Below are positions 36,917 through 51,665 of a stretch of 64,000 nt of DNA, one piece after another; position 1 is the stretch's first letter; each line of letters begins with the position of its first letter. A program made the translations under genes and the position numbers. Origin of the DNA: Mesorhizobium terrae. Its GTDB lineage: Bacteria > Pseudomonadota > Alphaproteobacteria > Rhizobiales > Rhizobiaceae. The notes under the pieces are model-generated. The model was given only the letters and a program-made list of their open reading frames with translations, did no database searches and was not told where the DNA came from. The stretch spans positions 1,116,001 to 1,180,000 of the forward strand of contig NZ_CP044218.1 in assembly GCF_008727715.1 (NCBI RefSeq), written 5' to 3'.

Positions 36917-37019
36917 AGCGCGACTGGTGGAGAATGAAGATCGGCTCTGGAAATATGCAGTTTAGTGCGACCCAACTCTTTCTAGAAAGGGCATGTGCCA
37001 TCTAACTTATTGAAATCAT

Positions 37020-37064
37020 TGGCGCACCCGACAGGATTCGAACCTGTGACCTCTGCCTTCGGAG
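37020..37064 (-). other. Attachment site: 3' fragment of tRNA-Arg(CCG)
   Basis: Read on the minus strand, these 45 bases run from the anticodon loop (CTCCGAA, anticodon CCG) through the 3' anticodon arm, variable loop, T arm (GGTTCGAATCC) and acceptor 3' strand to an encoded CCA. The 5' half of a tRNA is missing: the sequence beyond 37064 does not form the D arm or the 5' acceptor strand. This is the usual footprint of integration into a tRNA 3' end. The integrase gene begins 185 bases away. The intact tRNA should lie at the other end, to the right; I did not find it in this window. Confidence 0.85.
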
Positions 37065-37191
37065 CAATTTAGCCTGCCTATCCTAAATGCACGATAGGGC
37101 ACGCTACAATGCGATATGTTACTGAAGTCGCTAGACAATTCGGATTTCCGCGCCGAACTGTCTATCCAGAAATTCGCTCCGATATCCATCC

Positions 37192-37224
37192 GGTTGCTTC
37201 CGTGGTGCTTCCGCGGAAGCAACC
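37192..37224. repeat. 11-bp inverted repeat upstream of the integrase gene
   Basis: GGTTGCTTCCG (37192-37202) and its exact reverse complement (37214-37224) are separated by 11 bases. There is no T-run, so it is not a terminator. It may be an operator for the integrase or an arm-type recombination site. Confidence 0.6.
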
Positions 37225-37248
37225 CCGCACTAGCGAGGGGAACGCCTC

Positions 37249-38610
37249 ATGGCAAAGCTGACCAAGCGGATCGTGGATGCTGCCGATGTCCGCGAGAAGG
37301 ACTATTTCATCTGGGACGACGAACTGCCCGGCTTCGGCCTCCGCGTGTTCGCTTCCGGCAAACGCAGCTACCTCATTCAATATCGCGCTGCTGGACGCAC
37401 GCGACGCTACACCATCGGCCTGCATGGCGTGTGGACGCCAGAGACAGCCCGGCAAGAAGCGAAGGTCCAACTGGGTCGCGTCGCGCGCGGAGACAACCCT
37501 TCCGAGGAACGTCAGCTCGATCACAAGGCCATCACGGTCAAGGAGCTTTGCGCTCTCTATACCGCCGACCTGAACGCTGGCCTCATCCTGGGTAAGGGCG
37601 GGAGATCGAAAAAGCCGACCACCATCGTCACCGACACTGGCCGTATCGAGCGACACATCATCCCGCTGATCGGCGCACGCCGCGTCAAGGATCTCACCAA
37701 GGCCGACATCAACAAAGTCTTGAAGGACATCATGGCCGGCAAGACGCGCGTCGCCGTCAAGACGAAGAAGCTGCGAGGAAAGGCCATTGTTCGTGGTGGC
37801 GCGGGCACGGCCACGCGCACCGTCGGCCTATTGGGCGGAATCCTCACCTACGCTGTCGATGCTGGGATCATCGAGGTCAATCCGGCGCACGGCATCAAGA
37901 AGCCCAAGGACAATGTTCGGAATCGTCGGCTGACCGAGGCGGAGTATCGCACCCTCGGGCAAATGCTTCGCGATGCCGCGGCGAACGAAAAATACGCCAT
38001 GACCGTGGACATCATCCGGCAGATCGCGCTCACCGGCTGCCGCCGCTCGGAAATGATCTCGCTAATGTGGATCGAGGCTGACACCGACGCGAGTTGCATG
38101 CGCCTGGTGGACAGCAAGGAAGGTGAGTCCATTCGTCCAATCGGATTGCCCGTCGTCGAGTATCTGGAGGAACGGCGCAAGACCGCAGCGGGCACCTATG
38201 TCTTCCCAGGTCAGGGCGAGGACAATGCGTTCGGCAGCTTCCCGAACCATTGGGAACAGATTTTCAACGACAGCCCGCTCGCCGGCGTCACGCCGCACGT
38301 CCTGCGTCACAGCTTTGCCAGCATCGCCAACGATCTCGGTTTCACCGAGGTGACGATCGCGGCGCTCGTCGGCCATTCCAAGGGCTCGGTGACGAGCAAA
38401 TACATTCACACGCTCGACACTGCGCTCATCATGGCGGCCGACACGATCTCGGGCTACATCAACGGGCTGCTTGAGGGCATCGAATTCAAGCAGACGGCCT
38501 ACGCGCTGGATCGCGATTCCCGGCGCGCTGCACTCGATCTCTTCCTGAGCAAAGCGGTGGGAGAGCCGGCGAACGAAGCGGAGGACGAGGAGCGTCGTCT
38601 GGCTGCCTGA
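37249..38610 (+). CDS. Tyrosine recombinase/integrase (P4-like)
   Basis: The 453-residue integrase has the N-terminal DUF4102-like arm-binding domain (DDELPGFGLRVFASGKRSYLIQYR) and a core-binding domain (about 100-220). The catalytic domain carries Arg in TGCRRSE, HVLRHSFA (HxxR) and the nucleophile Tyr in KYIHTLD. It would move the element into and out of the adjacent tRNA-Arg site. The product ends in a polar tail after YINGLLEG. Confidence 0.93.
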   Translation: MAKLTKRIVDAADVREKDYFIWDDELPGFGLRVFASGKRSYLIQYRAAGRTRRYTIGLHGVWTPETARQEAKVQLGRVARGDNPSEERQLDHKAITVKELCALYTADLNAGLILGKGGRSKKPTTIVTDTGRIERHIIPLIGARRVKDLTKADINKVLKDIMAGKTRVAVKTKKLRGKAIVRGGAGTATRTVGLLGGILTYAVDAGIIEVNPAHGIKKPKDNVRNRRLTEAEYRTLGQMLRDAAANEKYAMTVDIIRQIALTGCRRSEMISLMWIEADTDASCMRLVDSKEGESIRPIGLPVVEYLEERRKTAAGTYVFPGQGEDNAFGSFPNHWEQIFNDSPLAGVTPHVLRHSFASIANDLGFTEVTIAALVGHSKGSVTSKYIHTLDTALIMAADTISGYINGLLEGIEFKQTAYALDRDSRRAALDLFLSKAVGEPANEAEDEERRLAA

Positions 38611-38636
38611 GATCTCTGTGCGGAGCGCCATTAGGA

Positions 38637-39776
38637 CTAGGAGAACATCCGATCCGCGAAGTCCGCCGGGATATGCGGAACACCCAGCGCTTCGAGCAGG
38701 CGGGTGCTCATCACCAGGTTGATGCCAGTCGCTTGCATCGGGTTGCCGGCGTCGATCATCCGGTGGAAGACCTCGCGGAGCGGCTTTTCGATGCGCCCCT
38801 TCCGCGCCTTGCCGTCCCGCGCGAAACGCATCGCGCAGCCCGCAAGGATGTCGGCTGCCTGGAGGCAGGGTTCGATCTTCCCTGTCGCAAAGATGAGATC
38901 GCCACGCCCTCGCAAACGATAGTCGGCGAACGGAACGATCGGCAGAGCCGCCTCAGCCGCGAGTTGCTCCATGAGCGTCTTGGAGTCCTCGAGTACCTTT
39001 GCGTACTGCATCTGCCCGTCGTGAACGAGTTGGGCGCCGTCGAGGCTCGCAGGGCGGGACTGGTTGAGACGAGCGTAGATGTTCGTGAGGCACTGGAGGT
39101 TGGGCAGCATCCAAACCTTCTTCCCGGTGGCTGACTCATCAGCGATTGGCAGAAATTCCTCGGCCTTCGCCGACGATTTCCGCACGCGGTCCCGCGCGAA
39201 CATCGTCAGCATCTGTGCGGTTCGGGCGATCTCGGCGTCGGAGCGATCCAGCCAGTCCCAGAGCAGATCGATGACGGCCGCCACGGATGTCACCGAGAGT
39301 GTCTCGCAGGCGTTAATATAGGCCAGCAGCACCGCGTCGGAATCCTCGTCCGAGAGGAACTCGGCGATCATATTGCGGCTCGCCATGTCGACATCATCGA
39401 GTCCGTAGGAGCCGCAAAGCAGGTGGTTAACGATGTGGATCGCGACGAAGAACCGCTTGTCCACCAGCTTCACGAAGAGCGGCCATCGATGCCGGCCAAG
39501 GAAGGTGATCAGCTCACCCGCGATTGGCGTCAGCTTCTTTCCCAACTTGGTCGATTTCAGCTCGCCTTCACCGCAGGCGTAATGCACACGCAGCCGATCC
39601 AGCTCCGCGGCCAACAGCGCAGCATCCGCAGCGCCGACACAGGCCAGCGCGAAGAATGGTTGCCCAGCGAAATCGGGCGCTTTCGCCGAGGCTAGATCGC
39701 CGCTATGGCCGCTTTCGTCGAGGAAATAGCGGTCTACAGCAACGCTCGATGATGGGTGTTTGCTGTCGTCGGTCAT
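38637..39776 (-). CDS. DUF3800 domain protein, last gene of the defence block
   Basis: A 379-residue protein with YFLDESGHSGD near its start, the signature of DUF3800, a family with an RNase H-like fold and predicted nuclease activity. Later acidic residues (for example EDSKTLMEQL and CLQAADILAG) fit that fold. DUF3800 genes are common in mobile elements and near defence genes. ATG 39776 puts the motif near residue 20; the frame is open to 39929, which would overlap the CoiA-like gene. Its 3' end is convergent with the integrase. Confidence 0.75.
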   Translation of the reverse strand: MTDDSKHPSSSVAVDRYFLDESGHSGDLASAKAPDFAGQPFFALACVGAADAALLAAELDRLRVHYACGEGELKSTKLGKKLTPIAGELITFLGRHRWPLFVKLVDKRFFVAIHIVNHLLCGSYGLDDVDMASRNMIAEFLSDEDSDAVLLAYINACETLSVTSVAAVIDLLWDWLDRSDAEIARTAQMLTMFARDRVRKSSAKAEEFLPIADESATGKKVWMLPNLQCLTNIYARLNQSRPASLDGAQLVHDGQMQYAKVLEDSKTLMEQLAAEAALPIVPFADYRLRGRGDLIFATGKIEPCLQAADILAGCAMRFARDGKARKGRIEKPLREVFHRMIDAGNPMQATGINLVMSTRLLEALGVPHIPADFADRMFS

Positions 39777-39885
39777 CGGCCGTGACACTGCTTGAAGTTC
39801 CGGTCTGACTGGCACTGACACCGCTGGTTTCGACCGACCTTGGTTCGACTTCGTGGGGGCCGCGCCGCTCGATACGAGTAGTTCG

Positions 39886-40587
39886 TCAAGCAGCACCATC
39901 CTCCCAGCGGACGGCCCGCAAAAACTCATCGCGTGTCAGAGCGCAAAGGGCGAACTCGCCACGCTTCAATGGACTGCCGAGGCGGGCGGCCACGCCAGGA
40001 CCGGCGAGGTAGAAGATGTATGGACCGGCATGGAAGAAGACGTGGGCAGCAGCGCGCTTCCATTTCTCAATGAACTGCTTGTTCGGTCCCATCCACCGCA
40101 TGATCGCGAATTCCTTGCCGTCGAGATTGACGACACGCGATTTGAAATCGAGCGACATGCCGAAATAGGTTCCCAGGAACGAGCTTTCGCTATGGATGTG
40201 GACCAGCCAGAACATCCGATGCCCGCGGCGATAAAAAGCTTCCCGCGCGTTGCGCTCGTCCTCGCTGATTGAGGAGTGCTGCAGCTCCAGCACCGTCGCC
40301 CTGGGGGTGCCGCTACCGACCAGAACATCGGCGCGATGCAATTCTCCGGTCGCCGGATCGCGCAAAGCGATCTCACGGCACGCCATGTCGAAAAGTTCTT
40401 TCCAGCCGAGGTGCCAAGGCCCCTCGGGCTCGCTCCAAGGATCGCAGTCACCCGCCTTGTGCCGCCAATGGGGCGTGTTCTCGACAGGCATGACAGCGGT
40501 GAGCAAGCCGCCGCAGTCGCGGCAGGTCGTGCGCTCTCCCTTCGCGAAGGGCGCGCGCTTCTGGTCGTCGACCCAGGCATAGAGCAT
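39886..40587 (-). CDS. CoiA-like nuclease family protein
   Basis: A 233-residue protein. It opens with a zinc-ribbon-like segment (CRDCGGLLTAV...HWRHKAGDCD), followed by HRADVLVG and then ATVLELQHSSISEDERNAREAFY. The D...ExQ pattern with HSxIS is the hallmark of competence CoiA-like nucleases (PD-(D/E)XK fold). Its substrate is unknown. It starts 15 bases after the hamB stop codon, so it is probably cotranscribed with the Hachiman genes. Confidence 0.75.
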   Translation of the reverse strand: MLYAWVDDQKRAPFAKGERTTCRDCGGLLTAVMPVENTPHWRHKAGDCDPWSEPEGPWHLGWKELFDMACREIALRDPATGELHRADVLVGSGTPRATVLELQHSSISEDERNAREAFYRRGHRMFWLVHIHSESSFLGTYFGMSLDFKSRVVNLDGKEFAIMRWMGPNKQFIEKWKRAAAHVFFHAGPYIFYLAGPGVAARLGSPLKRGEFALCALTRDEFLRAVRWEDGAA

Positions 40588-40602
40588 AGCTACGGCTTCC
40601 TT

Positions 40603-43600
40603 TTACGCATCGGCTGTCGGCCAGCGCAGTTTCCCGCGGCCGACACGCAAGGCCTCCACCAGCCTGGTGCCGCCGGGCAATCGGCCTGAAAAGAGGCTGG
40701 GCTTGGGATCGACCGCTGGCTTCTTGAAAGCAGCGACCCGCTGATAGTCGGGCGTCGTCAGCCAGGTTCGCCCGTCGCCCTCGTCGGTGACGATCCGATA
40801 GAGGCCGGAAGGCGGGGCGGCCGCGACGTCGAGCAAGCGCTTGTAGTGTTCGACCGACCACTTCTGGATGCCGCCGCTGAGGGCTTCGGTTCGGAACCGT
40901 GCCCATAGCGCGGCGGTGTCGGGCGTCGGCCAGTCGCCGGCATCCGTGTAGGCTGTGATCTCGTCGGATTCGAGCCAGGCCCTCATCTCGGCGGGCGTGA
41001 CGAAAACCGGCTTGGCATCCTCGATCGCCGCCATGGCCGCGCGCCGTGACGGAAGGCCCGCGCGGATCAACATCGACATCATGAATTGCGGGACGCCGGT
41101 TTCGACCGCCGCCGCGGCGCCACCCGCCACCGTTTCCGGTGACCAGCCGAGGGACATGCGACGAGTGCGGACAGCTTCCAGCGCCCAGACCAGGCGATAG
41201 GTGAAGGCCTCTTCCACGGCCCGCATGTTCTGCGGTCCGATCTTGGCCACATCCTCGCCGGACACCCAACTGCGCAGAATAGCCTTCCAATTCGCCGGCA
41301 GCGCGTTCGCCTTGTCGGGGATGAAGGGCCGCATGAACAGCAGGCGCTCGCCAAGACCGCCGAGCGCCTCGACAAGTGCGTCAACGTCGCCGCTCAACGC
41401 CGCATCGTCAGCCCGGTCCAGAAGTTCGGCCAGCTCGTCGGCCATGGCGTCGATGGTGAGTCCAGCCTCAAGCCCAACGCCCATGGCGAAATGTCCGCGC
41501 CGCGCCTGCGCCGTGGTGGTCCTCCAGATGAGATCCGCACGCGCCTCGAACACCTTTTTGTGCAGCGGGGCGACATCCTCGTCTTCGCGGGCGATCTGGC
41601 GCGCCCAGAGCGATCCCTTGAGCGCTTCGTCCAAGAGCTTCGGCAGGTCGGCGCGATCGGAATCGAGTGCTTCGATCAGACCGAACACTGTCGCGTCGAG
41701 GCGTTCGACGATCTGCGACAGCGGCTCCTCGTCGATGGTTTCTTCCTCGTCCTCGCCGCCGCCTTCATCATCATCGCCGTCAGCGTCGTACTCCGCGCCG
41801 GCCGCCAGGCGCTCGGCGACCGCGGCTTCCTCCTCGGGCGATCTCCAGGCTTCACGGGCGTTGGCCAGATATTCCCAGGCATCGTCGCGATCCAGGACAC
41901 CTTCGCGGGACAGGCGCTCAAGGATCTCGGCGACGATCTGGATGAGACCGCTCTTCAGCGTGCGGGCCTTGGCGGAAGCGACCAGCTTCCCCCATTCCTT
42001 CTTTCGCCAATCGACCTTATCGAACATGACATGGACGATGAGGCCTTCGACGTCCACGAAGGCGCGCCCGGCGCGGCCGGCGACGTTCGCAAACTCCTCG
42101 CCTTTGATCTTCTCGGACGCCCGATATAGCGCCGGCACCAACAGGACGGCGGCGTTGAGGTTGAGACCCTGCGAGAGTGTCGGCGACGCGACGATGACCT
42201 TCAGGACACCCTCGGACAACAGGGCTTCCAGCTCACGCAGGAACGGGCTCGGCAGCCGGCCGTGGTGGATGGCAACGCCGGCCTTCAGGCAGGCGACGGC
42301 GGGATGGTCTTCGCCCAACCATTCTTTGCCGACCTCCAGAGCGCGGGCGATGGAGGCCTCATCCTCCAACAGTGAGTCCAGATAGCCGCGCTTGCAGAGG
42401 TCCACGACCTGTTTGCCGTAGCTCTCGACCCAATTCGCCTGGGTGGAGAAAATCAGCGTCCGCTTGCCCTGGCCCGCGAATTCCCATGCCGCGAACAGGG
42501 CGAGATGTGAGTTCTTGCGCGGATAGGGCTTCTTCTCTTTCCCCCGCGCAGGTTTCTGCACGACGAATTTGTCGAGGAACGGACCATCATCGTCGAGATC
42601 CAGTCGCAGCCGCGCGTCCTTGCCCCGCCAGGTGAGTGCGCCGAACCGCTGGCGCGTGGGGCGCCAGTCGGAGCGCACCGGCTCGCCCGGTTCGTCAGAG
42701 CGTATCCACGCGGTGAGATCATCGAGTTCGTCGCCGCTGGGCAGGATCGCGGACAGACAGACGATGCGGCGTTCGCCCGCGTCCGCACGTCGAAGCAAAC
42801 GCTGCACCAGCGTCTCGTATCGGATCTCGCGTTCGCTCGGGCCGATCATGTGGCCTTCGTCGAGGACGATCAGGCCGACATCGTCGATCAGCGACGGGTC
42901 GCTTCTCAGCGCGAAGTCGAGTTTCTCGGGCGTCGCGATGATGATCTCGCGGGAGCGCAGCGCGTCTTCATCGCCAGCCGAAAGGCCGCTGGCGCCGTAG
43001 AGGGAGGAGACGCTGAAGCCGAGCGGCGCAAACGTCTTTCTGAACGATCGCTCGGTCTGGGCGGACAGCGCGCGCAGCGGCGTCACGATCAGCACCCGGC
43101 GCGCCGACGACAGGGTCATCAGCGCGGCGATCTCGGCCACGCGGGTCTTGCCGGCACTGGTCGGCAGGGCGACGACCAGATCGTCGGTGACGTCCGTGGA
43201 GCGCCGGGCCGCTTCGCGCTGCGATGGCCATAGCTCCACCTCGGACGTCTTGCGGGCGTAGAGCGACGAGATGAATAGACGGCGCAGGTCCGGGTATTTT
43301 TCCTCCGTTCCCTCCGGCGGCTCGGTGGGCAGGTTCTCGTGCAGCGAATGCTGCCAAAGGTCATCGATCAGGTGACGACAGAGATTCGAGATCCACCACA
43401 GCGGAACATTCTCGGCGTTGTCCGCCAGGCTGACCGCGGTGCCGAGCAGCATCCGCGCGGTTTCGATCGGCTCGGGTTCGCCCGTCTCGAGCGCGAAGTC
43501 AAAATGCGCGAGAGCTCGGCAGATCGTCGTGTTGAGGATCGTCGATAGGGCCTCGTCGATGTCCGGCTCTTCGCCCGTCAGCGCCTCGGCGATCTGCTCA

Positions 43601-44106
43601 TCTCTGTGAGCCTCATCGTCCAACCACTCGCGAACGAACCCGCGCAACTGGCCAAGATCGCGCAGGATCAGATGCCGGATCGCCGTTTCGCCGGGTGAGG
43701 CATTGAGATCGTCCGCGGTCTCGTTGAAGAGCGAATAGGCGACGGCCGAGAAGCCGGCCAGGTGATAGGCCGCTGCGGCGATCGTCCGGCGGAAACCGCG
43801 ATCGGGAGACTCAGGATCGCCGTTGCGCACCAGGGCTTCGAAGGCGTTGGCGGCGCGCTCGAACGCCTTGCTGGTCAGATCCGACGCACCGGCCTGAGCG
43901 CGCAGGGCCATCGCCCCACGAAGCAGGGCAAAGCCGTGTTCGGCAAGATCAGTTTCGATCGTCGCACCGAGCGGCGGCGCGTTCGCCGGCAACACGCCTT
44001 CCTCACGCATCAGCGACCAGGCGGCGCCACGATAGAGCAGGCGCCCGAGGATGCCGTCGACGGTCGCGGTCGCCAGGAACGCGGTCAGTTCGTCAATCGT
44101 CTCCAA
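40603..44106 (-). CDS. hamB: Superfamily 2 DEAD/DEAH helicase, HamB of a Hachiman defence system
   Basis: A 1167-residue Ski2-like helicase. A roughly 290-residue helical N-terminus is followed by the motor: Walker A LPTSAGKT (about 314-321), motif Ib region VTPLRALSAQTE, motif II DEGH (416-419), motif III LSAILPSG, VIVASPTLSQGLNLNA and motif VI NVAGRAGRAF. An acidic linker (DADGDDDEGGGEDEEE) separates it from the C-terminal third. Its start overlaps the end of the HamA-like gene by 14 bases. In Hachiman, HamB senses DNA damage or foreign DNA and releases HamA nuclease activity. Assignment rests on the HamA partner and the large Ski2-type architecture. Confidence 0.85.
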   Translation of the reverse strand: METIDELTAFLATATVDGILGRLLYRGAAWSLMREEGVLPANAPPLGATIETDLAEHGFALLRGAMALRAQAGASDLTSKAFERAANAFEALVRNGDPESPDRGFRRTIAAAAYHLAGFSAVAYSLFNETADDLNASPGETAIRHLILRDLGQLRGFVREWLDDEAHRDEQIAEALTGEEPDIDEALSTILNTTICRALAHFDFALETGEPEPIETARMLLGTAVSLADNAENVPLWWISNLCRHLIDDLWQHSLHENLPTEPPEGTEEKYPDLRRLFISSLYARKTSEVELWPSQREAARRSTDVTDDLVVALPTSAGKTRVAEIAALMTLSSARRVLIVTPLRALSAQTERSFRKTFAPLGFSVSSLYGASGLSAGDEDALRSREIIIATPEKLDFALRSDPSLIDDVGLIVLDEGHMIGPSEREIRYETLVQRLLRRADAGERRIVCLSAILPSGDELDDLTAWIRSDEPGEPVRSDWRPTRQRFGALTWRGKDARLRLDLDDDGPFLDKFVVQKPARGKEKKPYPRKNSHLALFAAWEFAGQGKRTLIFSTQANWVESYGKQVVDLCKRGYLDSLLEDEASIARALEVGKEWLGEDHPAVACLKAGVAIHHGRLPSPFLRELEALLSEGVLKVIVASPTLSQGLNLNAAVLLVPALYRASEKIKGEEFANVAGRAGRAFVDVEGLIVHVMFDKVDWRKKEWGKLVASAKARTLKSGLIQIVAEILERLSREGVLDRDDAWEYLANAREAWRSPEEEAAVAERLAAGAEYDADGDDDEGGGEDEEETIDEEPLSQIVERLDATVFGLIEALDSDRADLPKLLDEALKGSLWARQIAREDEDVAPLHKKVFEARADLIWRTTTAQARRGHFAMGVGLEAGLTIDAMADELAELLDRADDAALSGDVDALVEALGGLGERLLFMRPFIPDKANALPANWKAILRSWVSGEDVAKIGPQNMRAVEEAFTYRLVWALEAVRTRRMSLGWSPETVAGGAAAAVETGVPQFMMSMLIRAGLPSRRAAMAAIEDAKPVFVTPAEMRAWLESDEITAYTDAGDWPTPDTAALWARFRTEALSGGIQKWSVEHYKRLLDVAAAPPSGLYRIVTDEGDGRTWLTTPDYQRVAAFKKPAVDPKPSLFSGRLPGGTRLVEALRVGRGKLRWPTADA

Positions 44107-44875
44107 GGTCTTCCGCCTCCTGATACATGGCTGCGATGAAGTCCTGATGGTCCTCGACGTGGACGTTCACGACATAGTGGTCCCGGTTGGTTCCGGTGGC
44201 GTCGAGATCCTCCTTCAGCAAGGCGTGCGGGCCGTTGCCCGACACCGTGAAGAGCATATGGTCGATGCGATCGGCGCGGAGGGACTTCAGGCCCACTTCG
44301 TCACGCAGGCTGCGGCCTAGCGCGTTGTCGTCCGGGTCGTTGCTCTCCAACAGGCGGTTGGCGACGAACAGCAGGGAATCGGGCGTGCAACGGCCGCTAT
44401 CGCGGTTGAGCACCTTGCGGGCGCTCGTGACCGTGGCCTTGCCGAGCACCTTGTTGCTCTTAGCTTCGCCCTTCAGGAGCCAGAGCTTCTCGCCGGCCGC
44501 ATCGTATCCAGCGCCGATGAAGTCGTCGCCGCGCATGGCCATGTTGCGGCCGTCCTTGTAGCGGAGGCGGCGCACAGGGACGCGCAGGCCGATCTCTTCC
44601 TCGACCAGCTCGGTCGCGAGAATTTCACCGAGATCGCCGGAACGGCCCTTTGGCGTCTGGGGCATCGCCTCGCTGAGGATCTTCGCGGCGACCTTGTAGC
44701 CGAGCCGCTCCACGTCCTCGGCGATGCGTTCGAGCCGGTCGTAGTGCGAGCGGATAGTCTCGGCGAGGTCATCGCGAATCTCGTCGCGGCCGCCGTCCTT
44801 CTCGACATAGGTCCAGTAGCGCTTGCGCTTGTCCTTTTCCCTGGTGGCATCACACCACTTCTTATACAGCCCCAC
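44093..44875 (-). CDS. hamA: DUF1837 nuclease-like protein, HamA of a Hachiman defence system
   Basis: A 260-residue protein. From GTG 44875, conserved features are GDLGE (80-84), RGDDFIG (about 115-121) and KGEAK (135-139). The D...ExK arrangement fits a PD-(D/E)XK nuclease, as described for HamA. GTG 44875 has a GGAG site about 11 bases upstream; the longer frame to 44935 would run back into the AbiEii gene. It sits 17 bases after AbiEii and overlaps hamB by 14 bases. Confidence 0.82.
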   Translation of the reverse strand: MGLYKKWCDATREKDKRKRYWTYVEKDGGRDEIRDDLAETIRSHYDRLERIAEDVERLGYKVAAKILSEAMPQTPKGRSGDLGEILATELVEEEIGLRVPVRRLRYKDGRNMAMRGDDFIGAGYDAAGEKLWLLKGEAKSNKVLGKATVTSARKVLNRDSGRCTPDSLLFVANRLLESNDPDDNALGRSLRDEVGLKSLRADRIDHMLFTVSGNGPHALLKEDLDATGTNRDHYVVNVHVEDHQDFIAAMYQEAEDLGDD

Positions 44876-44892
44876 GCTTTCCCCAACTCCTG

Positions 44893-45909
44893 TTATTCCG
44901 CCGCGCGGTTCGCCCGTTCGGCGACGTCTGCGCATCGCTCGATCAGCGCCTCGAACGGCTCTGCGTCTTCCAGCAGCAACCCGTCTTCGACCATGCGCGC
45001 ATAGTCCGTAGCCAATGCCGCGCGCGCCTCACCACTCGGTGCGAGCTGTAATTTCCCGCCGACGGCGGCTTCGTAATCAATAGTCTCGCCATCGGCCGCC
45101 TTCTCGGCGAAGAACATGCTCTTATGGCGGGCGACGGCGTTGGCGAGGTCGCGGTCGGCCAATGCGGCGGTGGCGATCCCCGCATCATCCAGTCGAACAA
45201 CATCATGCCAGTGGCGGGCGAAGCGTTCGCCACGGAGCCGTTCCTGCAGGCAGAAGACGTGCATGGCCGTCGCCTTCTCCCAGAAGGTCCGCTCGGCGTG
45301 CATCACGCGCGGATGCGCCGTTGGAAATTCGACACCTTCGATCAGCCCGGCCGCGTCGCACACGACATTCCGCGGACTTGCCGGCTCGCCGGTCGAGCGG
45401 GCGCCGAACTCCAGCATCACGCTTGGAGCCACATAGCCCGACCCCGCCGAGGTCGCCTCATAGTCGACGAACAGCTTGTCGCCTTCGACCCGGAGCGCTG
45501 CGGGGAGCGATAGTGCTTTGATCGCGCCGGCAAGAAGGGGCTGGACCGTTCCGTCGACCCACTCGGGCAGGCGGTGCCGGACAGCCTTCGACCACCGCTT
45601 CTCCTCGCTGCGATTTTTCGGCAGGGCCTCGCCGTTCTCGCCCACCAGGTCGGGGGCGATGGCGCGGATGTCGTAGGTGAGATCCACGTCTTCGGAAAAC
45701 CGCCGGATGACATGATACGCTTTCGACAGCGACGTGCCGCCCTTGAACACGAGATGCACGCCAAGGTCGGACCCGAACAGCGTCGCGAGGGTCCAGACGA
45801 TCCAGACATCCTTCTCCAGCAGATGGAGCGGTCGCCCGGATCGATCGGCGGCGACGGCCAGAGCCTCGCGCCGATCGTCCGCCGACAATGTCAGGAACGC
45901 CTCAGCCAT
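44893..45909 (-). CDS. abiEii: AbiEii-type nucleotidyltransferase toxin
   Basis: The 338-residue protein has the DUF1814 signature: LLEKDVWIVWTL, then VFKGGTSLSKAYHVIRRFSEDVDL, with the GS/D-x-D nucleotidyltransferase core (GGTSLSK and SEDVDL). AbiEii toxins are type IV toxins that modify nucleic acid or nucleotide targets and block growth after phage infection. The start overlaps the antitoxin gene by 8 bases. HamA follows 17 bases downstream. Confidence 0.9.
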   Translation of the reverse strand: MAEAFLTLSADDRREALAVAADRSGRPLHLLEKDVWIVWTLATLFGSDLGVHLVFKGGTSLSKAYHVIRRFSEDVDLTYDIRAIAPDLVGENGEALPKNRSEEKRWSKAVRHRLPEWVDGTVQPLLAGAIKALSLPAALRVEGDKLFVDYEATSAGSGYVAPSVMLEFGARSTGEPASPRNVVCDAAGLIEGVEFPTAHPRVMHAERTFWEKATAMHVFCLQERLRGERFARHWHDVVRLDDAGIATAALADRDLANAVARHKSMFFAEKAADGETIDYEAAVGGKLQLAPSGEARAALATDYARMVEDGLLLEDAEPFEALIERCADVAERANRAAE

Positions 45910-46495
45910 GCGCGACTTTGCCCACCGTCCTGGCGAGCCAGCTCGGAAGCTGGGGCGCGGCCGCGACGAGTTCGCCGAAGGTGGAAGACGGCAACTTGCG
46001 CTTCAACGTCTTCAAGGCGGCTTCCGCCTTCTCCGGCCCCAACCAGGCGAGCGCACGTACGGCCTGACCGGCGGGCCGATCGGCCAGCGCCAACTGCCAG
46101 CGCGGCGCATGCCGCAGCTCGACGACCTGCTGACCGAGATTCATCGTCCGGCTACGGCCCGATGTCAGATAGACCGACCGGACCGGCACCTGGGTCGTGA
46201 GGCCGAGCGCGTTGGCGGCGGCGGCGCCGTTCGACACGATGGTTTCGCCGCGCTGGAGCGCGAGGGCTTCGACGGCCTTCTCGACGGACGGCGCGCGAGA
46301 GCCGAACCGGCTGGAAACCGGGCGCAGATAGACGCCGCGCCCGGCGCGCATCAGCCGGCCACGTTCAGCCAGTCGCGACAAGGCCTGGTCCACCGCGGCG
46401 CGATTGCCGAGATGGAGTAGGCTCTTCGCCGCGATCGGAGCGCCCTCGGGCAAGCCCTCAGTATGCGCCAGAATCTGTTCGGTCAGTCGCTGCAC
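45902..46495 (-). CDS. abiEi: AbiEi-type antitoxin/transcriptional regulator (DUF6088-like)
   Basis: The 197-residue protein has an N-terminal winged helix (about 20-60, ALSRLAERGRLMRAGRGVYLRP) and a C-terminal domain with VRSVYLTSGRSRTMNLG typical of AbiEi/DUF6088 antitoxins. These bind inverted repeats in their own promoter and repress the operon. A perfect 10-bp inverted repeat lies 10 bases before its start codon, which fits autoregulation. Confidence 0.88.
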   Translation of the reverse strand: MQRLTEQILAHTEGLPEGAPIAAKSLLHLGNRAAVDQALSRLAERGRLMRAGRGVYLRPVSSRFGSRAPSVEKAVEALALQRGETIVSNGAAAANALGLTTQVPVRSVYLTSGRSRTMNLGQQVVELRHAPRWQLALADRPAGQAVRALAWLGPEKAEAALKTLKRKLPSSTFGELVAAAPQLPSWLARTVGKVAHG

Positions 46496-46504
46496 GATAA
46501 TCTC

Positions 46505-46534
46505 CTGTCAGAAATATACGCAGTTTTCTGACAG
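46505..46534. promoter_or_regulatory. Inverted-repeat operator of the AbiE/Hachiman block
   Basis: CTGTCAGAAA (46505-46514), a 10-base AT-rich spacer and TTTCTGACAG (46525-46534) form a perfect 10-bp inverted repeat directly upstream of the AbiEi start. Size and place match AbiEi-type operators, and no other promoter-sized gap occurs before the six downstream genes except the 109-base gap before the DUF3800 gene. Confidence 0.75.
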
Positions 46535-46587
46535 TTTTCAATCTCCCCAAAACCGGCTGGAAGGGCCAGCGATTGAGAGGGGCCTGG

Positions 46588-46655
46588 AGGGGAAAGCCTT
46601 CCCCTGCGGCCGAGCCCAGGGTCTCGGCCGACCCCTTCTGCGGGGAGACCCCGCA
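46588..46655. repeat. Three tandem hairpins in the intergenic region
   Basis: Three perfect stem-loops stand in a row: AGGGGAA/TTCCCCT (46588-46605, 4-base loop), CGGCCGAG/CTCGGCCG (46607-46630, 8-base loop) and TGCGGGG/CCCCGCA (46639-46655, 3-base loop). No T-runs follow. They lie between the AbiE operator and the DUF932 leader. Function unknown. Confidence 0.6.
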
Positions 46656-46665
46656 ACGCCCCCAT

Positions 46666-46740
46666 TAGAGTGAGAGTGTGGACCGGATTTCCGTGACGGG
46701 TTGAGGGTCGGGAGAGAGTCTTCCGACGCCCGTCATGGAG
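46666..46740 (+). promoter_or_regulatory. Structured 5' leader, family 1, copy 1 (DUF932 gene)
   Basis: This 75-base block aligns without gaps to 48033-48107; I count 56 identical positions. It starts TAGAGTGAGAG and carries GACGGG (46695-46700) and CCCGTC (46729-46734), able to pair, with a GGGAGAGAG purine run between them. It ends in GGAG, the ribosome site for ATG 46750. Confidence 0.7.
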
Positions 46741-46749
46741 TTTGATCCC

Positions 46750-47943
46750 ATGAACATGCAGGTTCTCGATGCCCGGCGCGACGTGAGTGGCGGCTGGAAG
46801 GTGGACGTCAACCGCGGCGAGCGCATCGGCCGCGTTTCCTCGGAGTGGTTCTCGCGGCCCGACGACGAGCGCTATCTCTCGCTCGCCGAACTCGGCCGGA
46901 CCGTCCGCGAGCGGACTGAGCGCAGCCGGACGCGCGTCGTCGAATCCGCGCTCATCCATGTCGAAGCCAGCCGCACCGATCCCGAACGGCTTGCCCTGAT
47001 CCTACCAGGCGCCGACAAGCCCATCGCGCCGACGCACTGGAGCTTCGGCCAGCTCGCCAGCCAGGTCGGCGCGCCGGCCGCCTATCTGCGGCAGCTCCCC
47101 GCCGCGCTCGCCGGCATCAACCTGCAATATGGCCTGACCGCTCACCGCGCCGAGCAGATCAAGACGCTCGAGACCGACGACGGCCGCGTCGAGCTGCGCG
47201 CCGTGACCGGCCCTGATTACGGCCGGATCTACGACCACGAGCTGGTCGAAGCCGTGCAGCGCATCGCCGGCAACGGCACCGGCGACACCCGATGGAAAGT
47301 GCCGGGCGTCCTCGACTGGTCGACCGGCGTCTATAATCCGCGCGTCGATATCACCAAGGACACCACGACGCTCTACGCCTCCGATCGCGACGTCTTCCTC
47401 TTCCTTGTCGACGATCTGAATCCGATCGAGGCCGGCAAGCTCGCGGACGGATCGCCCGATCTCTATTTCCGGGGCTTCTATGCCTGGAACAGCGAGGTGG
47501 GCGCGAAAACGCTCGGCATCGCGTCCTTTTATCTCAGGGCCGTGTGCCAGAATCGCAATTTGTGGGGCGTCGAGGATTTCGAGGAGATCTCCATCCGCCA
47601 CTCCAAATACGCCGCCTCGCGCTTCGCCCATGAGGCGGCGCCGGCGTTGCTCTCCTTCGCGGACTCCTCGCCGCAGCCGTTCATCAACGGCATCAAGGCG
47701 GCGCGCGAACGCATCGTCGCGCACAAGGACGAGGAACGCACCGAATTCCTGCGCCGCCGGGGTTTCTCGAAGGCCGAGACCGGCAAGATCATCGACGCGG
47801 TGCTGGCCGAGGAAGGCCGTCCGCCGGAGAGCATCTTCGATTTCGTGCAGGGCATCACCGCCGTCGCCCGCGACAAGCCGCATCAGGACGCGCGGCTCGA
47901 ACTCGAAGGCAAGGCCAAGAAGCTCCTCGATCGCGCCGCCTGA
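46750..47943 (+). CDS. DUF932 domain protein
   Basis: A 397-residue protein of the DUF932 family, found on plasmids, phages and integrative elements. Visible landmarks are RRDVSGGWKVDVNRGERIG, FGQLASQVGAPAAYLRQLP, GPDYGRIYDHELVEAV and SVYNPR/NRNLWG-type segments (here RAVCQNRNLWGVEDF). The family's molecular role is unknown. ATG 46750 has GGAG 9 bases upstream; ATG 46735 is less well placed. It has its own family 1 leader and a strong terminator at 47950-47994, so it is probably a single-gene unit. Confidence 0.88.
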   Translation: MNMQVLDARRDVSGGWKVDVNRGERIGRVSSEWFSRPDDERYLSLAELGRTVRERTERSRTRVVESALIHVEASRTDPERLALILPGADKPIAPTHWSFGQLASQVGAPAAYLRQLPAALAGINLQYGLTAHRAEQIKTLETDDGRVELRAVTGPDYGRIYDHELVEAVQRIAGNGTGDTRWKVPGVLDWSTGVYNPRVDITKDTTTLYASDRDVFLFLVDDLNPIEAGKLADGSPDLYFRGFYAWNSEVGAKTLGIASFYLRAVCQNRNLWGVEDFEEISIRHSKYAASRFAHEAAPALLSFADSSPQPFINGIKAARERIVAHKDEERTEFLRRRGFSKAETGKIIDAVLAEEGRPPESIFDFVQGITAVARDKPHQDARLELEGKAKKLLDRAA

Positions 47944-47949
47944 TTCCCA

Positions 47950-47994
47950 CAAAGCCGGAGATGCGGTTGTCCGTGTCTCCGGCTTTGCGTTTTT
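47950..47994 (+). terminator. Rho-independent terminator after the DUF932 gene
   Basis: A 12-bp perfect stem CAAAGCCGGAGA/TCTCCGGCTTTG (47950-47961 and 47976-47987) is followed by CG and five T residues. It begins 6 bases after the stop codon. Confidence 0.88.
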
Positions 47995-48032
47995 CCTCCA
48001 GCGTTTCCCCGACCCTCGATGCGCTGCCCTCC

Positions 48033-48107
48033 TAGAGTGAGAGGGCGGTGCTTCGCTTCGTGACGGGTTTAGGATCGAGAGAGAGGCTCTCGGCGCCCGT
48101 CGCGGAG
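48033..48107 (+). promoter_or_regulatory. Structured 5' leader, family 1, copy 2 (parB-like gene)
   Basis: Same length and layout as 46666-46740: TAGAGTGAGAG at the start, GACGGG at 48062-48067, a GAGAGAGAG run, CCCGTC at 48096-48101 and GGAG at the end, 8 bases before ATG 48116. Confidence 0.7.
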
Positions 48108-48115
48108 TAAGTCTC

Positions 48116-50254
48116 ATGGCAACTGCCATTCAGAAGATCACCCTGTCGTCGGCGCAGGACATCCCCTTCAACAAACTGGTGCTGAGCCAGTCGAACGTCC
48201 GCCGCGTCAAGGCCGGCGTCTCGATCGACGAGCTGGCCGAATCGATCGCCCGGCGCGGTCTCATCCAGTCCCTCCACGTCCGGCCGGTGCTCGATGCCGA
48301 AGGACAGGAAACCGGCATGTACGAAGTGCCGGCGGGCGGGCGTCGCTTCCGCGCGCTGCAACTCCTCGTCAAGCAGAAGCGCCTCACCAAGACCTCCAAG
48401 GTGCCGTGCGTGGTGTCGGACGCCAATGCCGACATCCTCGTCGACGAGGTGTCGCTGGCCGAGAATATCGAACGCGCCCCGCTGCATCCTCTCGACCAGT
48501 TCCGCGCGTTCCAGGCGATGCGCGAGAAGGGCATGACCGAGGAGGCGATTGCGGCAGCATTCTTCGCGCCCGTCCAGGTCGTGAAGCAGCGGCTTCGCCT
48601 CGCGGCCGTCTCGCCGGCACTGCTCGATATCTATGCCGAGGACGGCATCACGCTCGAACAGCTCATGGCGTTCACCGTCACCGACGATCATGCGCGACAG
48701 GAGCAGGTCTGGGAGTCGGTTCGCAATAGCTGGCAGAAGGAACCCTACCAGATCCGGCGCATGCTGACCGAGAGCGCCGTCCGCGCATCCGACAAGCGGG
48801 CCGTATTCGTCGGTATCGATGCCTATGAAACCGCCGGCGGCTGCGTGCTGCGCGATCTCTTCCAGGATGACGACGGCGGCTGGCTGCAGGATCCTGCGCT
48901 GCTCGATCGCCTGGTCGCCGACAAGCTGAAGGCCTCCGCCGAAGCGATCGCCGGCGAAGGCTGGAAATGGATCGAGGTGGCGATGAGCTTCCCCTATGGC
49001 GCCACCCACGGCCTGCGCGAGATCGTGGGCACGCCGCTCGACCTGACGGCTGACGAACAGGCGACCATCGAGGCGCTCAACGCCGAGTACGCCAAGCTGG
49101 AGGCCGAATATGAGCACGCCGACGAGTTGCCGGACGAGATCGATCAGCGCCTTGGCGAAATCGAAACCGCGCTCGCCAGCTTCGACGAGCGGCCGGTCCA
49201 CTACGAGCCCGCAGACATCGCGATCGCAGGTGTCTTCGTCAGCTTGGATGCCGACGGCACGCTGTCGATCGACCGCGGCTATGTCCGCCCCGACGACGAG
49301 CCCGCCAACCAGTTGGACGGCGGCGAAGGGGATGAGCAGGATGATGGCGAACATGACGCTGACCATCCGATGACGCCTTCGGTCCAGCGTGCGGTCATCA
49401 CCATCGGCGGCAAACCCGCCGGGTCCGAGGAGGAGGACGAGGACGACACGATCAAGCCGCTCCCTGATCGCCTCATCACCGAGCTGACCGCCGATCGCAC
49501 CCTCGCGCTGCGCGACAAACTCGCCAGCGATCCCTCGGTCGCCTTCGTCGCCGTCCTGCACAAGTTCTGCCAGGACGTGTTCTACGGCGGCAGCCAGTAT
49601 GGCTTCGCGATGGAGGTCAGCGTGCGCGGCACGACCTTCCATTCGCAGCCCGAAGGGTTGCGTGACAGCGTCTATGCCAAGGCGATCGAGGCCCGGCATG
49701 ATGGCTGGCGCAAGCGGCTCCCGGGCAAGGTGGCTGATCTCTGGGATGGGCTGGCCGCACTGACTGGCCCCGAACAGGCGGAACTCTTCGCCCATTGCGC
49801 TTCATTCGGCGTCAATGCGCTCTACGAGAAGGCCGATCGCTATGGTGGCCGCGTCTCGGCGCACAGCATTGACCAGCGTATCGCCGAGGCCGATCGCCTG
49901 TCGCTCGCAGTCGGGCTCGACATGGCCGAAGCGGGCTGGCGGCCGACGGTTGCCAATTATCTCGGTCGCGTCACCAAGCCCCGCATCCTCGAAGCCGTGC
50001 GTGAAGGCGTCGGCGAGCGTGCCGCCCACCTCATCGAGCATCTGAAGAAGGGCGATATGGCGACCGAAGCGGAACGCCTCCTTGTCGAGACAGGCTGGCT
50101 GCCCGAGCCGCTGCGCAATTCCGGCATCGATGCTGGAACCATCGAGGCGGATGCTGGCGAGGGCGACGACGCGTTGCCGGACTTCCTCGCTGGCGATGAC
50201 GAGGAGACCGTTGCCGACGATGACGAGGAACAGCACCTCGCCGCCGCCGAGTGA
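48116..50254 (+). CDS. ParB/RepB/Spo0J-family nuclease-like partition protein, large
   Basis: A 712-residue protein, about twice the size of classic ParB. The N-terminal ParB domain shows NKLVLSQSNVRRVKAGVSIDELAESIARRGLIQSL, VPAGGRRFRALQLL (the GxRR nucleotide-binding box) and VSLAENIERAPLHPLDQFRAF. A helix-turn-helix follows (MTEEAIAAAFFAPVQVVKQRLRLA). The rest is element-specific, with acidic linkers near 415-450 and at the C-terminus (GDDEETVADDDEEQ). No ParA is adjacent, so the role may be regulation or element maintenance. A terminator follows at 50280-50313. Confidence 0.88.
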   Translation: MATAIQKITLSSAQDIPFNKLVLSQSNVRRVKAGVSIDELAESIARRGLIQSLHVRPVLDAEGQETGMYEVPAGGRRFRALQLLVKQKRLTKTSKVPCVVSDANADILVDEVSLAENIERAPLHPLDQFRAFQAMREKGMTEEAIAAAFFAPVQVVKQRLRLAAVSPALLDIYAEDGITLEQLMAFTVTDDHARQEQVWESVRNSWQKEPYQIRRMLTESAVRASDKRAVFVGIDAYETAGGCVLRDLFQDDDGGWLQDPALLDRLVADKLKASAEAIAGEGWKWIEVAMSFPYGATHGLREIVGTPLDLTADEQATIEALNAEYAKLEAEYEHADELPDEIDQRLGEIETALASFDERPVHYEPADIAIAGVFVSLDADGTLSIDRGYVRPDDEPANQLDGGEGDEQDDGEHDADHPMTPSVQRAVITIGGKPAGSEEEDEDDTIKPLPDRLITELTADRTLALRDKLASDPSVAFVAVLHKFCQDVFYGGSQYGFAMEVSVRGTTFHSQPEGLRDSVYAKAIEARHDGWRKRLPGKVADLWDGLAALTGPEQAELFAHCASFGVNALYEKADRYGGRVSAHSIDQRIAEADRLSLAVGLDMAEAGWRPTVANYLGRVTKPRILEAVREGVGERAAHLIEHLKKGDMATEAERLLVETGWLPEPLRNSGIDAGTIEADAGEGDDALPDFLAGDDEETVADDDEEQHLAAAE

Positions 50255-50279
50255 CGATGTACCTTTCCTGATCTGATCA

Positions 50280-50313
50280 GCCCGGCGTCCCTTCGAAGGC
50301 GCCGGGCTTTTTT
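50280..50313 (+). terminator. Rho-independent terminator after the parB-like gene
   Basis: GCCCGGCG (50280-50287) pairs with CGCCGGGC (50300-50307); the loop contains a second small dyad, CCTTCGAAGG. Six T residues follow. Confidence 0.88.
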
Positions 50314-50323
50314 CATGCGAGGC

Positions 50324-50420
50324 GATCGAGAGGGAGAGTTTGGCCCGGACGAGGCGAGCCAGACCTGGAGGAGAGAGCGCCTGCCGGCTCTCCCGTTCCC
50401 TGCTCTCTGGGAGAGGCCGC
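50324..50420 (+). promoter_or_regulatory. Structured 5' leader, family 1, divergent copy 3
   Basis: It shares the GAGAGGGAGAG start, the central GGAGAGAGCGCC and the CCCGTTCC...GCTCTC segment with the leader at 51571-51665. Purine-rich GGAGAGAG can pair with CTCTCC. It ends at ATG 50421 with GGGAGAGG as ribosome site. Confidence 0.55.
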
Positions 50421-50834
50421 ATGGCCGAATACTTCACCCATTTCTCATGCCTGCTCGACGTCCGCACGGCTGACAACGCCGCTCGCGCGCTCGACCTCTA
50501 CAACCAACTGTCCGAGGACGGAGCATCCGAGGATCCACCCTCCGATAACTTTCTCCTTTCCATTCAGCCCGAACATGGCGGCACGAAGCTATGGATGCGC
50601 GACGACGTCACCGGCGATCCAGAGCGGCTGATCCAGTTCGTCAAACGCTGCGCCGCCGAATTCCAGCTCACCGGGCGCTGGGGATTCCAGTACGCCAACA
50701 CATGCTCGCGGCCGCGTCTCGACGGTTTCGGCGGCGGCGCGCATGTCCTTGATCTCGCAACCGGCGCGACTGTGGCGTGGACCTATACCGATGGCTGGCT
50801 TGCGACCATGCTCGCCGAGGGAGCTGCATCATGA
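50421..50834 (+). CDS. Hypothetical protein of the element module (137 aa)
   Basis: A soluble 137-residue product beginning MAEYFTHFSCLLDVRTADNAARAL. It has no membrane segment. Aromatic and acidic residues are spread through RWGFQYANTCSRPRLDGFGGGAHVLDL and TVAWTYTDGWL. I do not recognise a characterised family. The family 1 leader, a good ribosome site and the ATGA overlap with the next gene support it as real. Confidence 0.7.
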   Translation: MAEYFTHFSCLLDVRTADNAARALDLYNQLSEDGASEDPPSDNFLLSIQPEHGGTKLWMRDDVTGDPERLIQFVKRCAAEFQLTGRWGFQYANTCSRPRLDGFGGGAHVLDLATGATVAWTYTDGWLATMLAEGAAS

Positions 50835-51061
50835 GCATTCCCGATCATGCCCGCGCCAATTTCCAGACGTTGCTGCGCGCCGCCGAGAACGGTCATCTAG
50901 CTCTGATGGAATGCGCTGATGCCGTGACAGGCGAACCCCGCTACGTCATTTGCGCCGTAAGCCGCGATGGCGATTATCTGTTCACGCCATTCGGACACCT
51001 CGCCGACGGCAATCCCTATGAGGCCTATGTTCCGCCCGGCAGCGAGCCGGCATCCCGATAG
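50831..51061 (+). CDS. Small protein, DUF6117-like (76 aa)
   Basis: The 76-residue product starts MSIPDHARANFQTLLRAAENG and continues ALMECADAVTGEPRYVICAV and TPFGHLADGNPYEAYVPP. This looks like the DUF6117 family of element-borne small proteins; function unknown. The start codon overlaps the stop of the preceding gene, so the two are translationally coupled. Confidence 0.7.
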   Translation: MSIPDHARANFQTLLRAAENGHLALMECADAVTGEPRYVICAVSRDGDYLFTPFGHLADGNPYEAYVPPGSEPASR

Positions 51062-51064
51062 CGG

Positions 51065-51424
51065 CTACCAGACGGCCACTTCCCATTGCCCGTTGACGCG
51101 CGCGAAGCCGATCGGCCGGTTTTGCGGCGTCGCGTTCGGCTTGGTCGAATCCATGACGAGCTGCGTCATGCAGGTGACACCAGGGCCGACCCCACCAGGG
51201 GAGCAGTCGCCGAGCTTCAGCGTTGCGTTGGCGAGCGACGTTCCCGTGAACAGCCGGTGGCGCCGAACCGCGTCGGTCGCCTCTGCCTCAGTCGGCTGCG
51301 CTACGCCGGCCGCCGCTGCCGGCGACGCCGCTACCGGTAACAATGCGGGCCGCAGGGCGAACCCGGCTCCAAATCCCACCACCAGGCATCCCGCCGCGAC
51401 GATGCCGACCACGCTTCCCTTCAT
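51065..51424 (-). CDS. Small membrane-anchored or secreted protein (119 aa)
   Basis: The product starts MKGSVVGIVAAGCLVVGFGAGFALRPALL, a signal anchor with GG-type small residues, then an Ala-rich linker. The soluble C-terminal part has two cysteines (LGDCSPG and VTCMTQL) that could form a disulfide, ending RPIGFARVNGQWEVAVW. Ribosome site GGAAGG is present. It opposes its neighbours and starts 4 bases past the upstream stop, convergent with it. Function unknown. Confidence 0.65.
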   Translation of the reverse strand: MKGSVVGIVAAGCLVVGFGAGFALRPALLPVAASPAAAAGVAQPTEAEATDAVRRHRLFTGTSLANATLKLGDCSPGGVGPGVTCMTQLVMDSTKPNATPQNRPIGFARVNGQWEVAVW

Positions 51425-51570
51425 GCCGCTGCTTCCTTCCTCTCCCGCCGCAGCGCGGCGGAAATCATCCGAGGCGCGGCGGCATCCTGCCTTTGCGTTG
51501 GATGCCGGAGTCTAGCGGGGCGCCTCGCGCGGTGGAAGGCCAAGCGATGAGCCGGGATACGGTCGCGGCA

Positions 51571-51665
51571 GAGTGAGAGGAAGGCCGGGACGGGTTTGAG
51601 CCCGTCCGGTCCGAGAGAGAGCGCCGGCGGGCATCCCCGTTTCCGCTCTCCCGAGGACCTCTTCC
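51571..51665 (+). promoter_or_regulatory. Structured 5' leader, family 1, copy 4 (strawberry-notch gene)
   Basis: GAGTGAGAGG opens the block as in copies 1 and 2. Here GACGGG and CCCGTC form a tight hairpin: GGACGGG (51588-51594), a 6-base loop and CCCGTCC (51601-51607). A GAGAGAGAG run and CCCCGTTTCC follow before ATG 51666. Confidence 0.65.

Follow-up and report, generated by a model that had tools for sequence, protein, structure and literature searches.

AbiE-headed Hachiman operon of Mesorhizobium terrae: a candidate modular defence cluster with CoiA-like and DUF3800 genes

Hachiman type I is described, for the HamA-HamB complex of Escherichia coli ECOR31 (PDB 8VX9), as a two-gene locus that senses DNA ends or damage and degrades DNA (PMC12278908). 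The AbiE system of Streptococcus agalactiae is in turn described as a bicistronic operon, whose AbiEi represses its own operon via inverted repeats (PMC3985639). Here we analyse a locus in which both kinds of system stand together: in a stretch of 64,000 nucleotides from Mesorhizobium terrae (NCBI RefSeq assembly GCF_008727715.1, contig NZ_CP044218.1, positions 1,116,001 to 1,180,000 of the forward strand; hereafter the window), AbiE heads an operon of five or six genes that includes Hachiman, and other defence genes follow the AbiE pair. Judged from sequence comparisons, this defence cluster appears to consist of exchangeable blocks and not to be a fixed system. AbiE seems to be an exchangeable head that also stands ahead of other defence systems, which goes beyond what a first-pass annotation of this DNA had proposed.

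Genes, spacing and promoter of the operon

The first-pass annotation had read six minus-strand genes as one operon behind a single operator, and both the gene identities and the spacing that it gave were borne out. All six frames are open on the minus strand between 46495 and 38637:

46513..46541, minus strand: sigma-70-like promoter from the promoter scan (-35 box TTGAAA at 46541-46536, 17-base spacer, -10 box TATATT at 46518-46513)
46506..46533: palindrome TGTCAGAAA-N10-TTTCTGACA covering the spacer and the -10 box, presumed AbiEi site, from the sequence and a genome pattern search
45902..46495, minus strand: AbiEi, DUF6088-type antitoxin/repressor of 197 amino acids, GTG start (Pfam DUF6088, 87.8 bits; PADLOC PDLC02226, 226 bits)
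44893..45909, minus strand: AbiEii nucleotidyltransferase toxin of 338 amino acids (Pfam PF08843, E 1.5e-36; PADLOC, 332 bits)
44093..44875, minus strand: HamA nuclease of 260 amino acids, GTG start (PADLOC PDLC00159, 378 bits; PDB 8vx9_A, E 8.7e-35)
40603..44106, minus strand: HamB, superfamily 2 (SF2; Ski2-like) helicase of 1167 amino acids, TTG start (PADLOC PDLC00174, 1674 bits, full length)
39886..40587, minus strand: CoiA-like protein of 233 amino acids, with a CxxC...HWRH N terminus and a PD-(D/E)XK-like core
38637..39776, minus strand: DUF3800 protein of 379 amino acids, ATG start (Pfam, 26.5 bits)

AbiEi and AbiEii overlap by 8 bases and HamA and HamB by 14, with gaps of 17 bases between AbiEii and HamA, 15 between HamB and the CoiA-like gene and 109 between the latter and the DUF3800 gene (an alternative, longer DUF3800 frame from 39929 would overlap the CoiA-like gene). 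Intact relatives keep this spacing with small shifts (AbiEii-HamA, 15-18 bases; HamB-CoiA, 14-15); the HamB-CoiA gap measures 2 bases in one subgroup (L029, L032 and L066, the last two taken as the same contig), and both Sphingobium genomes again have the 109-base gap. The ratio of nonsynonymous to synonymous substitution rates (Ka/Ks) is 0.03-0.11 for each gene against the relatives compared, a single relative in the case of DUF3800.

Scanning positions 38400-46900 (about 8.5 kb) returned two promoter-like sites, against 1.1 expected in shuffled sequence, and one of them lies on the operon strand, before AbiEi. The single operator of the earlier reading corresponds to this sigma-70-like site with its perfect inverted repeat; separate promoters before hamA or the CoiA-like gene, which the annotation had named as evidence against its view, did not appear, as the same scan found no second sigma-70-like site on the minus strand. 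The pattern TGTCAGAAA-N10-TTTCTGACA matches once in the 6.02-Mb genome (reversed control: none). The same arms, sometimes with 1-2 changes, precede AbiEi in the window-type and in the distant Mrr-Hachiman AbiE loci printed, and similar promoter-like sequence is found ahead of AbiEi in relatives.

The locus shows the features of a type IV AbiE toxin-antitoxin system, namely an AbiEi antitoxin followed by an AbiEii nucleotidyltransferase (GGTS at 57, DVDL at 74) and an inverted repeat in the promoter. By analogy with S. agalactiae AbiE, which is described with the same gene order and a promoter with inverted repeats just upstream (PMC3985639), AbiEi may bind the repeat at 46506-46533. The two systems differ in the repeat sequence and in AbiEi itself, which here is of the DUF6088 type: with 33.3 bits against a cut-off of 150 for the NCBIfam equivalog TAA_AbiEi, it would belong to another subfamily. 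A search by sequence for solved relatives of AbiEii gave none at E 1.

The Hachiman core comprises a HamA (DUF1837) nuclease with the D-GEXK motif and an adjoining Ski2-like SF2 helicase, HamB. GEAK stands at position 136 of HamA, where E137 and K139 align with E138 and K140 of the ECOR31 protein, residues that are mutated in one deposited structure, and HamB residues 3-1098 match the solved ECOR31 HamB (PDB 8vx9_B, E 3.5e-247). Given this homology over nearly the full length, HamAB appears to be an ordinary type I Hachiman with its catalytic residues kept, and is expected to degrade DNA upon sensing DNA ends or damage.

Other HamAB loci show further neighbours. A second HamAB copy in the same genome (L065, C2:1281000-1299000; HamB at C2:1289146-1292658, 84% identical) follows an AAA-DUF4143 gene, has another integrase as neighbour and is free of AbiE and CoiA in the stretch fetched. 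In L018 (10604-14910), an OLD-family ATPase gene and a helicase-looking gene lie behind HamB on its strand, another stacked arrangement. On plasmids of Sphingobium cloacae and Sphingomonas sanxanigenens (L081, L082), a separate trypsin-like peptidase gene, not annotated as fused, precedes HamA and recalls the protease of the HamMAB system discussed below.

As for the tail proteins, the CoiA-like protein scores 16.9 bits with CoiA_nuc (PF06054), below the 20.3-bit cut-off, and precomputed PF06054 is found on one (P0055) of the 120 CoiA-like homologs listed. Its predicted model resembles PD-(D/E)XK nucleases weakly and nuclease-like residues are conserved among its relatives; it is probably a nuclease of that type. 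It matches no PADLOC model at E 0.1. In a sequence search for solved relatives, viral capsid chains alone came up, at E 0.003-0.3 over a short stretch, and were taken as chance matches. The DUF3800 protein reaches 26.5 bits with PF12686 (cut-off 21), D20-E21-S22-G23 is invariant, and its model has a predicted RNase HII-like fold with a helical insertion, the RNase HII/H2-like match standing clearly above unrelated rows. Its subfamily is not rare, with 205 homologs among the proteins scored, many of them 80-94% identical; among 397 genomes of the order, a search at E 1e-50 found a match in the window's own genome only, and the best plasmid matches are less than 40% identical. Neither tail protein has a PHROGs family at E 0.01.

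Conservation and exchange of the gene set

Scanning genome contigs with an alignment of the CoiA-like protein, which reaches fairly close relatives, turned up 41 loci. Of these, 18 contain HamB of this kind, 12 have AbiEi and AbiEii at the head and 3 include DUF3800; the CoiA-like gene occurs without HamAB of this kind in the other 23. The five-gene set is intact in nine (L024, L025, L026, L027, L029, L031, L032, L035 and L037) and is also carried by the Sinorhizobium fredii plasmid pSF45436d (L015), beside a Tn3 transposase. Since its proteins are 99-100% identical to those of the window, L024 is practically the same element; L026 and L027 belong to two Sphingobium species (DUF3800 89% identical), so the six-gene order is known from two lineages. 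Conservation beyond this strain, on which the first-pass annotation had made its view depend, is supported, and a fixed six-gene system is ruled out by the 3/41 count for DUF3800. In L033, L036, L039, L040, L041 and L060 at least one of HamA, HamB, CoiA and AbiE is disrupted or missing and the others are open; some of the disruptions may be assembly errors.

Approached from the HamB side, with nine fetched loci at about 80% HamB identity or more (both G000 copies, G243, G086, G435, G944 and the plasmid hits H1, H2/H3 and H5; ten rows if the near-identical H2/H3 pair is kept separate), the CoiA-like gene is present in the window, G243 and S. fredii, three loci that are also the ones with AbiE, the G086 contig ending before the AbiE place. 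The CoiA-like gene thus accompanies HamAB often, not as a rule. On a quick HamB tree of the window-type clade, a minimum of five changes is needed to explain where CoiA is present (26 rows), and a minimum of six for AbiE (25 rows, with L067 omitted and the remnant in L060 counted as AbiE).

These data bear on the idea of a single machine made up of HamA, HamB and the CoiA-like protein, with the CoiA-like nuclease as a further effector comparable in principle to HamM. The cassette CoiA-like proteins do form one clade (99/100; it includes L028 and L048, two copies now without HamB), lie 14-15 bases behind HamB in most loci and keep nuclease-like residues, and with HamM there is a known case of an additional nuclease recruited by Hachiman (PMC12799240). 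Close HamAB relatives without CoiA exist, however (L016-L018, L065, L067, L075, L076), the gene comes or goes repeatedly on the HamB tree, and HamA keeps GEAK here, unlike virtually all protease-HamA fusions, which are described as having lost that site (PMC12799240). We regard a single machine as improbable. No HamAB accompanies the cassette-clade genes of L028 (6024-6728) and L048 (near 10001-10685) within the stretch fetched, which shows that the CoiA-like gene can part from Hachiman.

Block edges were placed where nucleotide similarity between loci stops. Among loci whose surroundings differ, similarity mostly begins at the -35 box (46541-46546), as in L015, L025, L026, L027, L031, L035, L036 and L039. 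In HamAB loci without AbiE, it begins at the HamA start (44875-44877; L018, L030, L034, L038, L040, L041, L065, L075 and L076), or at 44884 in L016 and L017. The right edge falls near the end of CoiA (39893-39917) in most loci and at the end of DUF3800 (38644) in the Sphingobium loci. Where AbiE is lacking, HamAB stands behind an AAA-DUF4143 gene with a 14-base overlap (L065, L075), behind DUF4143 and a large SMC-like ATPase (L034, L038) or behind Fic (L019). Related genes for large SMC-like ATPases of 992 amino acids occur in L121 (4237-7215), behind a shortened AbiEii, and in L034 (2701-5679), between DUF4143 and HamAB, and look like another exchanged block.

AbiE ahead of other defence systems

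A search of 397 genomes of the order found AbiE at 16 places in 15 genomes. Nine places were left once five broken copies and the two Hachiman cases, the window and G243, had been taken out, and in six of the nine AbiE is directly followed by a defence-type gene on its strand:

G031 and G101: Gabija behind AbiE, same strand (GajA and GajB, 790-904 bits, PADLOC)
G244: SIR2-HerA behind AbiE, same strand (796 and 1020 bits)
G261: SIR2-HerA pair by appearance, same strand
G050: DruE-like helicase and DpdE behind AbiE, same strand (265 and 643 bits)
G1014: SMC-like ATPase with a weak Ppl match behind a 3'-shortened AbiEii, same strand (95 bits)

Plasmid records matching AbiEii number 389 (E 1e-8) and those matching HamB 62 (E 1e-30), and one of the best 60 of the 389 AbiEii rows is in the HamB list. 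Ten loci were fetched from these best 60 by a non-random choice; five have a defence-type gene behind AbiE, four have none, and L090 has a DUF4238 gene, which lacks a PADLOC model and was not counted as defence:

L091: Gabija-like system behind AbiE, plasmid
L092: SIR2-HerA behind AbiE, plasmid
L093, L094 and L130: UvrD-type helicase behind AbiE, plasmid (L093 scanned, L094 and L130 by annotation), a lone UvrD helicase being weak evidence of defence

In total, a defence-type gene follows in 11 of the 19 non-Hachiman AbiE loci examined. At the nucleotide level, the block shared with the window starts at 46533-46543 in fifteen non-Hachiman AbiE loci (46725-46734 in L092, L115, L116 and L117) and ends, in the same fifteen, between 44894 and 45182, the AbiEii stop lying at 44893. 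As a control, the nearest called gene ahead of AbiEi gave one weak PADLOC match in nine loci; one further plasmid locus has an annotated Shedu gene ahead of AbiEi. A tree of AbiEii from 30 chosen loci groups the Hachiman-CoiA pairs in a single clade (82/97, not starred), and the partners require at least ten changes among nine states.

A second union of AbiE with Hachiman has the order AbiEi-AbiEii-restriction endonuclease-HamA-HamB. It is annotated on plasmids L022, L080, L083 and L086, and on L085 with AbiEii unannotated; in L088 the nuclease place is taken by a gene annotated as hypothetical, L084 is unannotated and matches by tblastn, and genome G034 (L070) shows the same order, Mrr_cat being confirmed by Pfam in L022 and L070. 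The HamAB of this Mrr-Hachiman clade is about 40% identical to that of the window. Because its AbiE lies far from the window type on the AbiEii tree, AbiE and Hachiman were joined either on at least two occasions or a very long time ago. Of the 62 HamB plasmid records 20 were fetched, and in 8 of these (S. fredii included) HamAB is preceded by AbiE; most of the AbiE-Hachiman records fetched are on plasmids typed conjugative.

We tentatively propose, as a possibility short of probable, that a family of AbiE pairs in Alphaproteobacteria acts as a portable switch, a block of promoter, operator, repressor/antitoxin and toxin whose end lies at the AbiEii stop codon or close to it. The block would be placed ahead of defence systems that are unrelated to each other (Gabija, SIR2-HerA, DruE/DpdE-like, Hachiman with CoiA and others, and distant AbiE likewise for Mrr-Hachiman), which would give them an antitoxin-controlled, infection-responsive promoter and make the host dependent on them. 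In the open-licence PubMed Central literature, as far as its text could be searched, we found no description of AbiE-headed defence operons or of the Hachiman-CoiA set, which is a weak negative.

The main rival explanation is plain stacking of mobile blocks in a defence island, whereby AbiE, Hachiman, CoiA-like and DUF3800 would be independent, functionally unconnected systems that only by chance came to lie in a row on one transcript. That the blocks occur apart fits it well: the CoiA-like gene without HamAB in 23 of 41 loci, HamAB without AbiE, and eight of the 19 non-Hachiman AbiE loci with no recognised defence gene behind. It accounts less readily for the same-strand order with near-constant spacing, for edges at gene boundaries, for AbiE-Hachiman pairing in two distant clades, or for the asymmetry in one nine-locus set, where PADLOC matches lie behind AbiE in five of six loci scanned (one weak) and in front in one of nine (weak). 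We consider accidental stacking rather unlikely. A somewhat less likely alternative is that AbiE mainly serves as an addiction module that guards the cassette and does not regulate defence. It would explain why a toxin-antitoxin pair heads cargo on mostly conjugative-typed plasmids in the AbiE-Hachiman records and lies beside an integrase here; for addiction alone, however, the pair would not have to lead the defence genes on their strand or have its regulated promoter read into them.

Proposed mechanism and comparison with known systems

We lean, by a narrow preference, towards a modular, AbiEi-repressed operon on a mobile element, with Hachiman as the main effector, an extra nuclease-like tail and AbiEii as back-up and addiction toxin. 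The head block (promoter, operator, AbiEi and AbiEii), which supplies the only recognisable promoter, would keep the whole transcript low through binding of AbiEi to the inverted repeat over the -10 box. HamB would patrol DNA, sense free ends or damage arising from infection and activate HamA, which would then destroy the cell's DNA. The tail would add a CoiA-like, probably PD-(D/E)XK, nuclease and, here and in Sphingobium, an RNase HII-like DUF3800 protein, which may finish substrates that HamA leaves; the tail may also add protection. Should infection shut off host expression, AbiEi would fall, the operon would be derepressed and AbiEii could arrest growth as a back-up, whereas loss of the cassette would be punished by the AbiEi-AbiEii pair.

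Several observations weigh against this modular, AbiEi-controlled operon. HamAB relatives without AbiE or CoiA exist, and the HamB-side sample has both in only three of nine loci; ECOR31 HamAB has a native promoter. Similarity between loci passes the -35 box to 46749 in L029, L032, L033 and L066, and reaches 47987 in L037, where the element backbone is shared. Behind AbiE, no defence-type gene comes next in G171, G217 (plasmid RepA) and G023, which are among the eight of 19 non-Hachiman loci without a recognised defence gene. The notion of AbiE as a strict leader of defence genes is weakened by the last four plasmid loci fetched, one of which has such a gene.

The carrying element is marked by two genes that flank the operon:

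37249..38610, plus strand: tyrosine integrase, convergent with the operon (Pfam Phage_integrase and Arm-DNA-bind_3)
46735..47943, plus strand: DUF932-like backbone gene, divergent from the operon (Pfam DUF932, E 0.0015, below the cut-off)

The sequence shared around the integrase ends near 37010-37050 in several relatives. The element is seen at 37010-38610 and 46581-58250, with a backbone of DUF932-like, ParB, strawberry-notch helicase, Toprim and SLOG proteins; in L057, L071 and L075 this DUF932-ParB pair has other genes as neighbours. At 46581-46734, a stretch of about 155 bases that looks non-coding is 86-94% identical in L025, L031, L039, L042 and L065, with differing neighbours and no Rfam match at the gathering score; no Rfam family reached that score anywhere in 37000-48200. 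Phage cargo was considered and set aside, as the CoiA-like protein (E 1e-10) and HamB (E 1e-30) had no match in 50,697 phage records; a pattern search of viral contigs, which reaches close relatives only, found no HamB relatives.

The locus touches on how hosts quiet costly suicide nucleases and activate them in time in helicase-nuclease systems, of which Hachiman and Gabija are examples. If several of these systems share an antitoxin-repressor at their head, a single short operator makes this question directly testable, and toxin-antitoxin addiction would be joined with control of defence genes, two ideas usually treated apart.

Nuclease-like genes are added to Hachiman in various ways, CoiA-like and RNase HII-like behind it here and Mrr-type in front elsewhere. 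The nearest precedent for such accessory nucleases is HamMAB, likewise a Hachiman locus with an added nuclease gene, where HamM is described as an upstream nuclease of the metallo-beta-lactamase fold, activated by a protease fused to HamA (PMC12799240); here, HamA is unfused (260 amino acids) and the CoiA-like gene lies downstream. A CoiA-domain protein obtained by functional selection for phage defence in E. coli (PMC9519451) likewise ties a CoiA-type domain to phage defence, although the likeness is one of description and the CoiA-like protein here has no PADLOC match. TPR-DUF3800 proteins reported with Cas12 (PMC10910872) share the DUF3800 domain, the RNase H-type fold and the defence context; they stand in CRISPR loci, whereas the DUF3800 gene here lies behind the CoiA-like gene in a Hachiman operon. 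Each part of the operon is thus already known, and the Hachiman operon of M. terrae is a variant of known parts in another combination.

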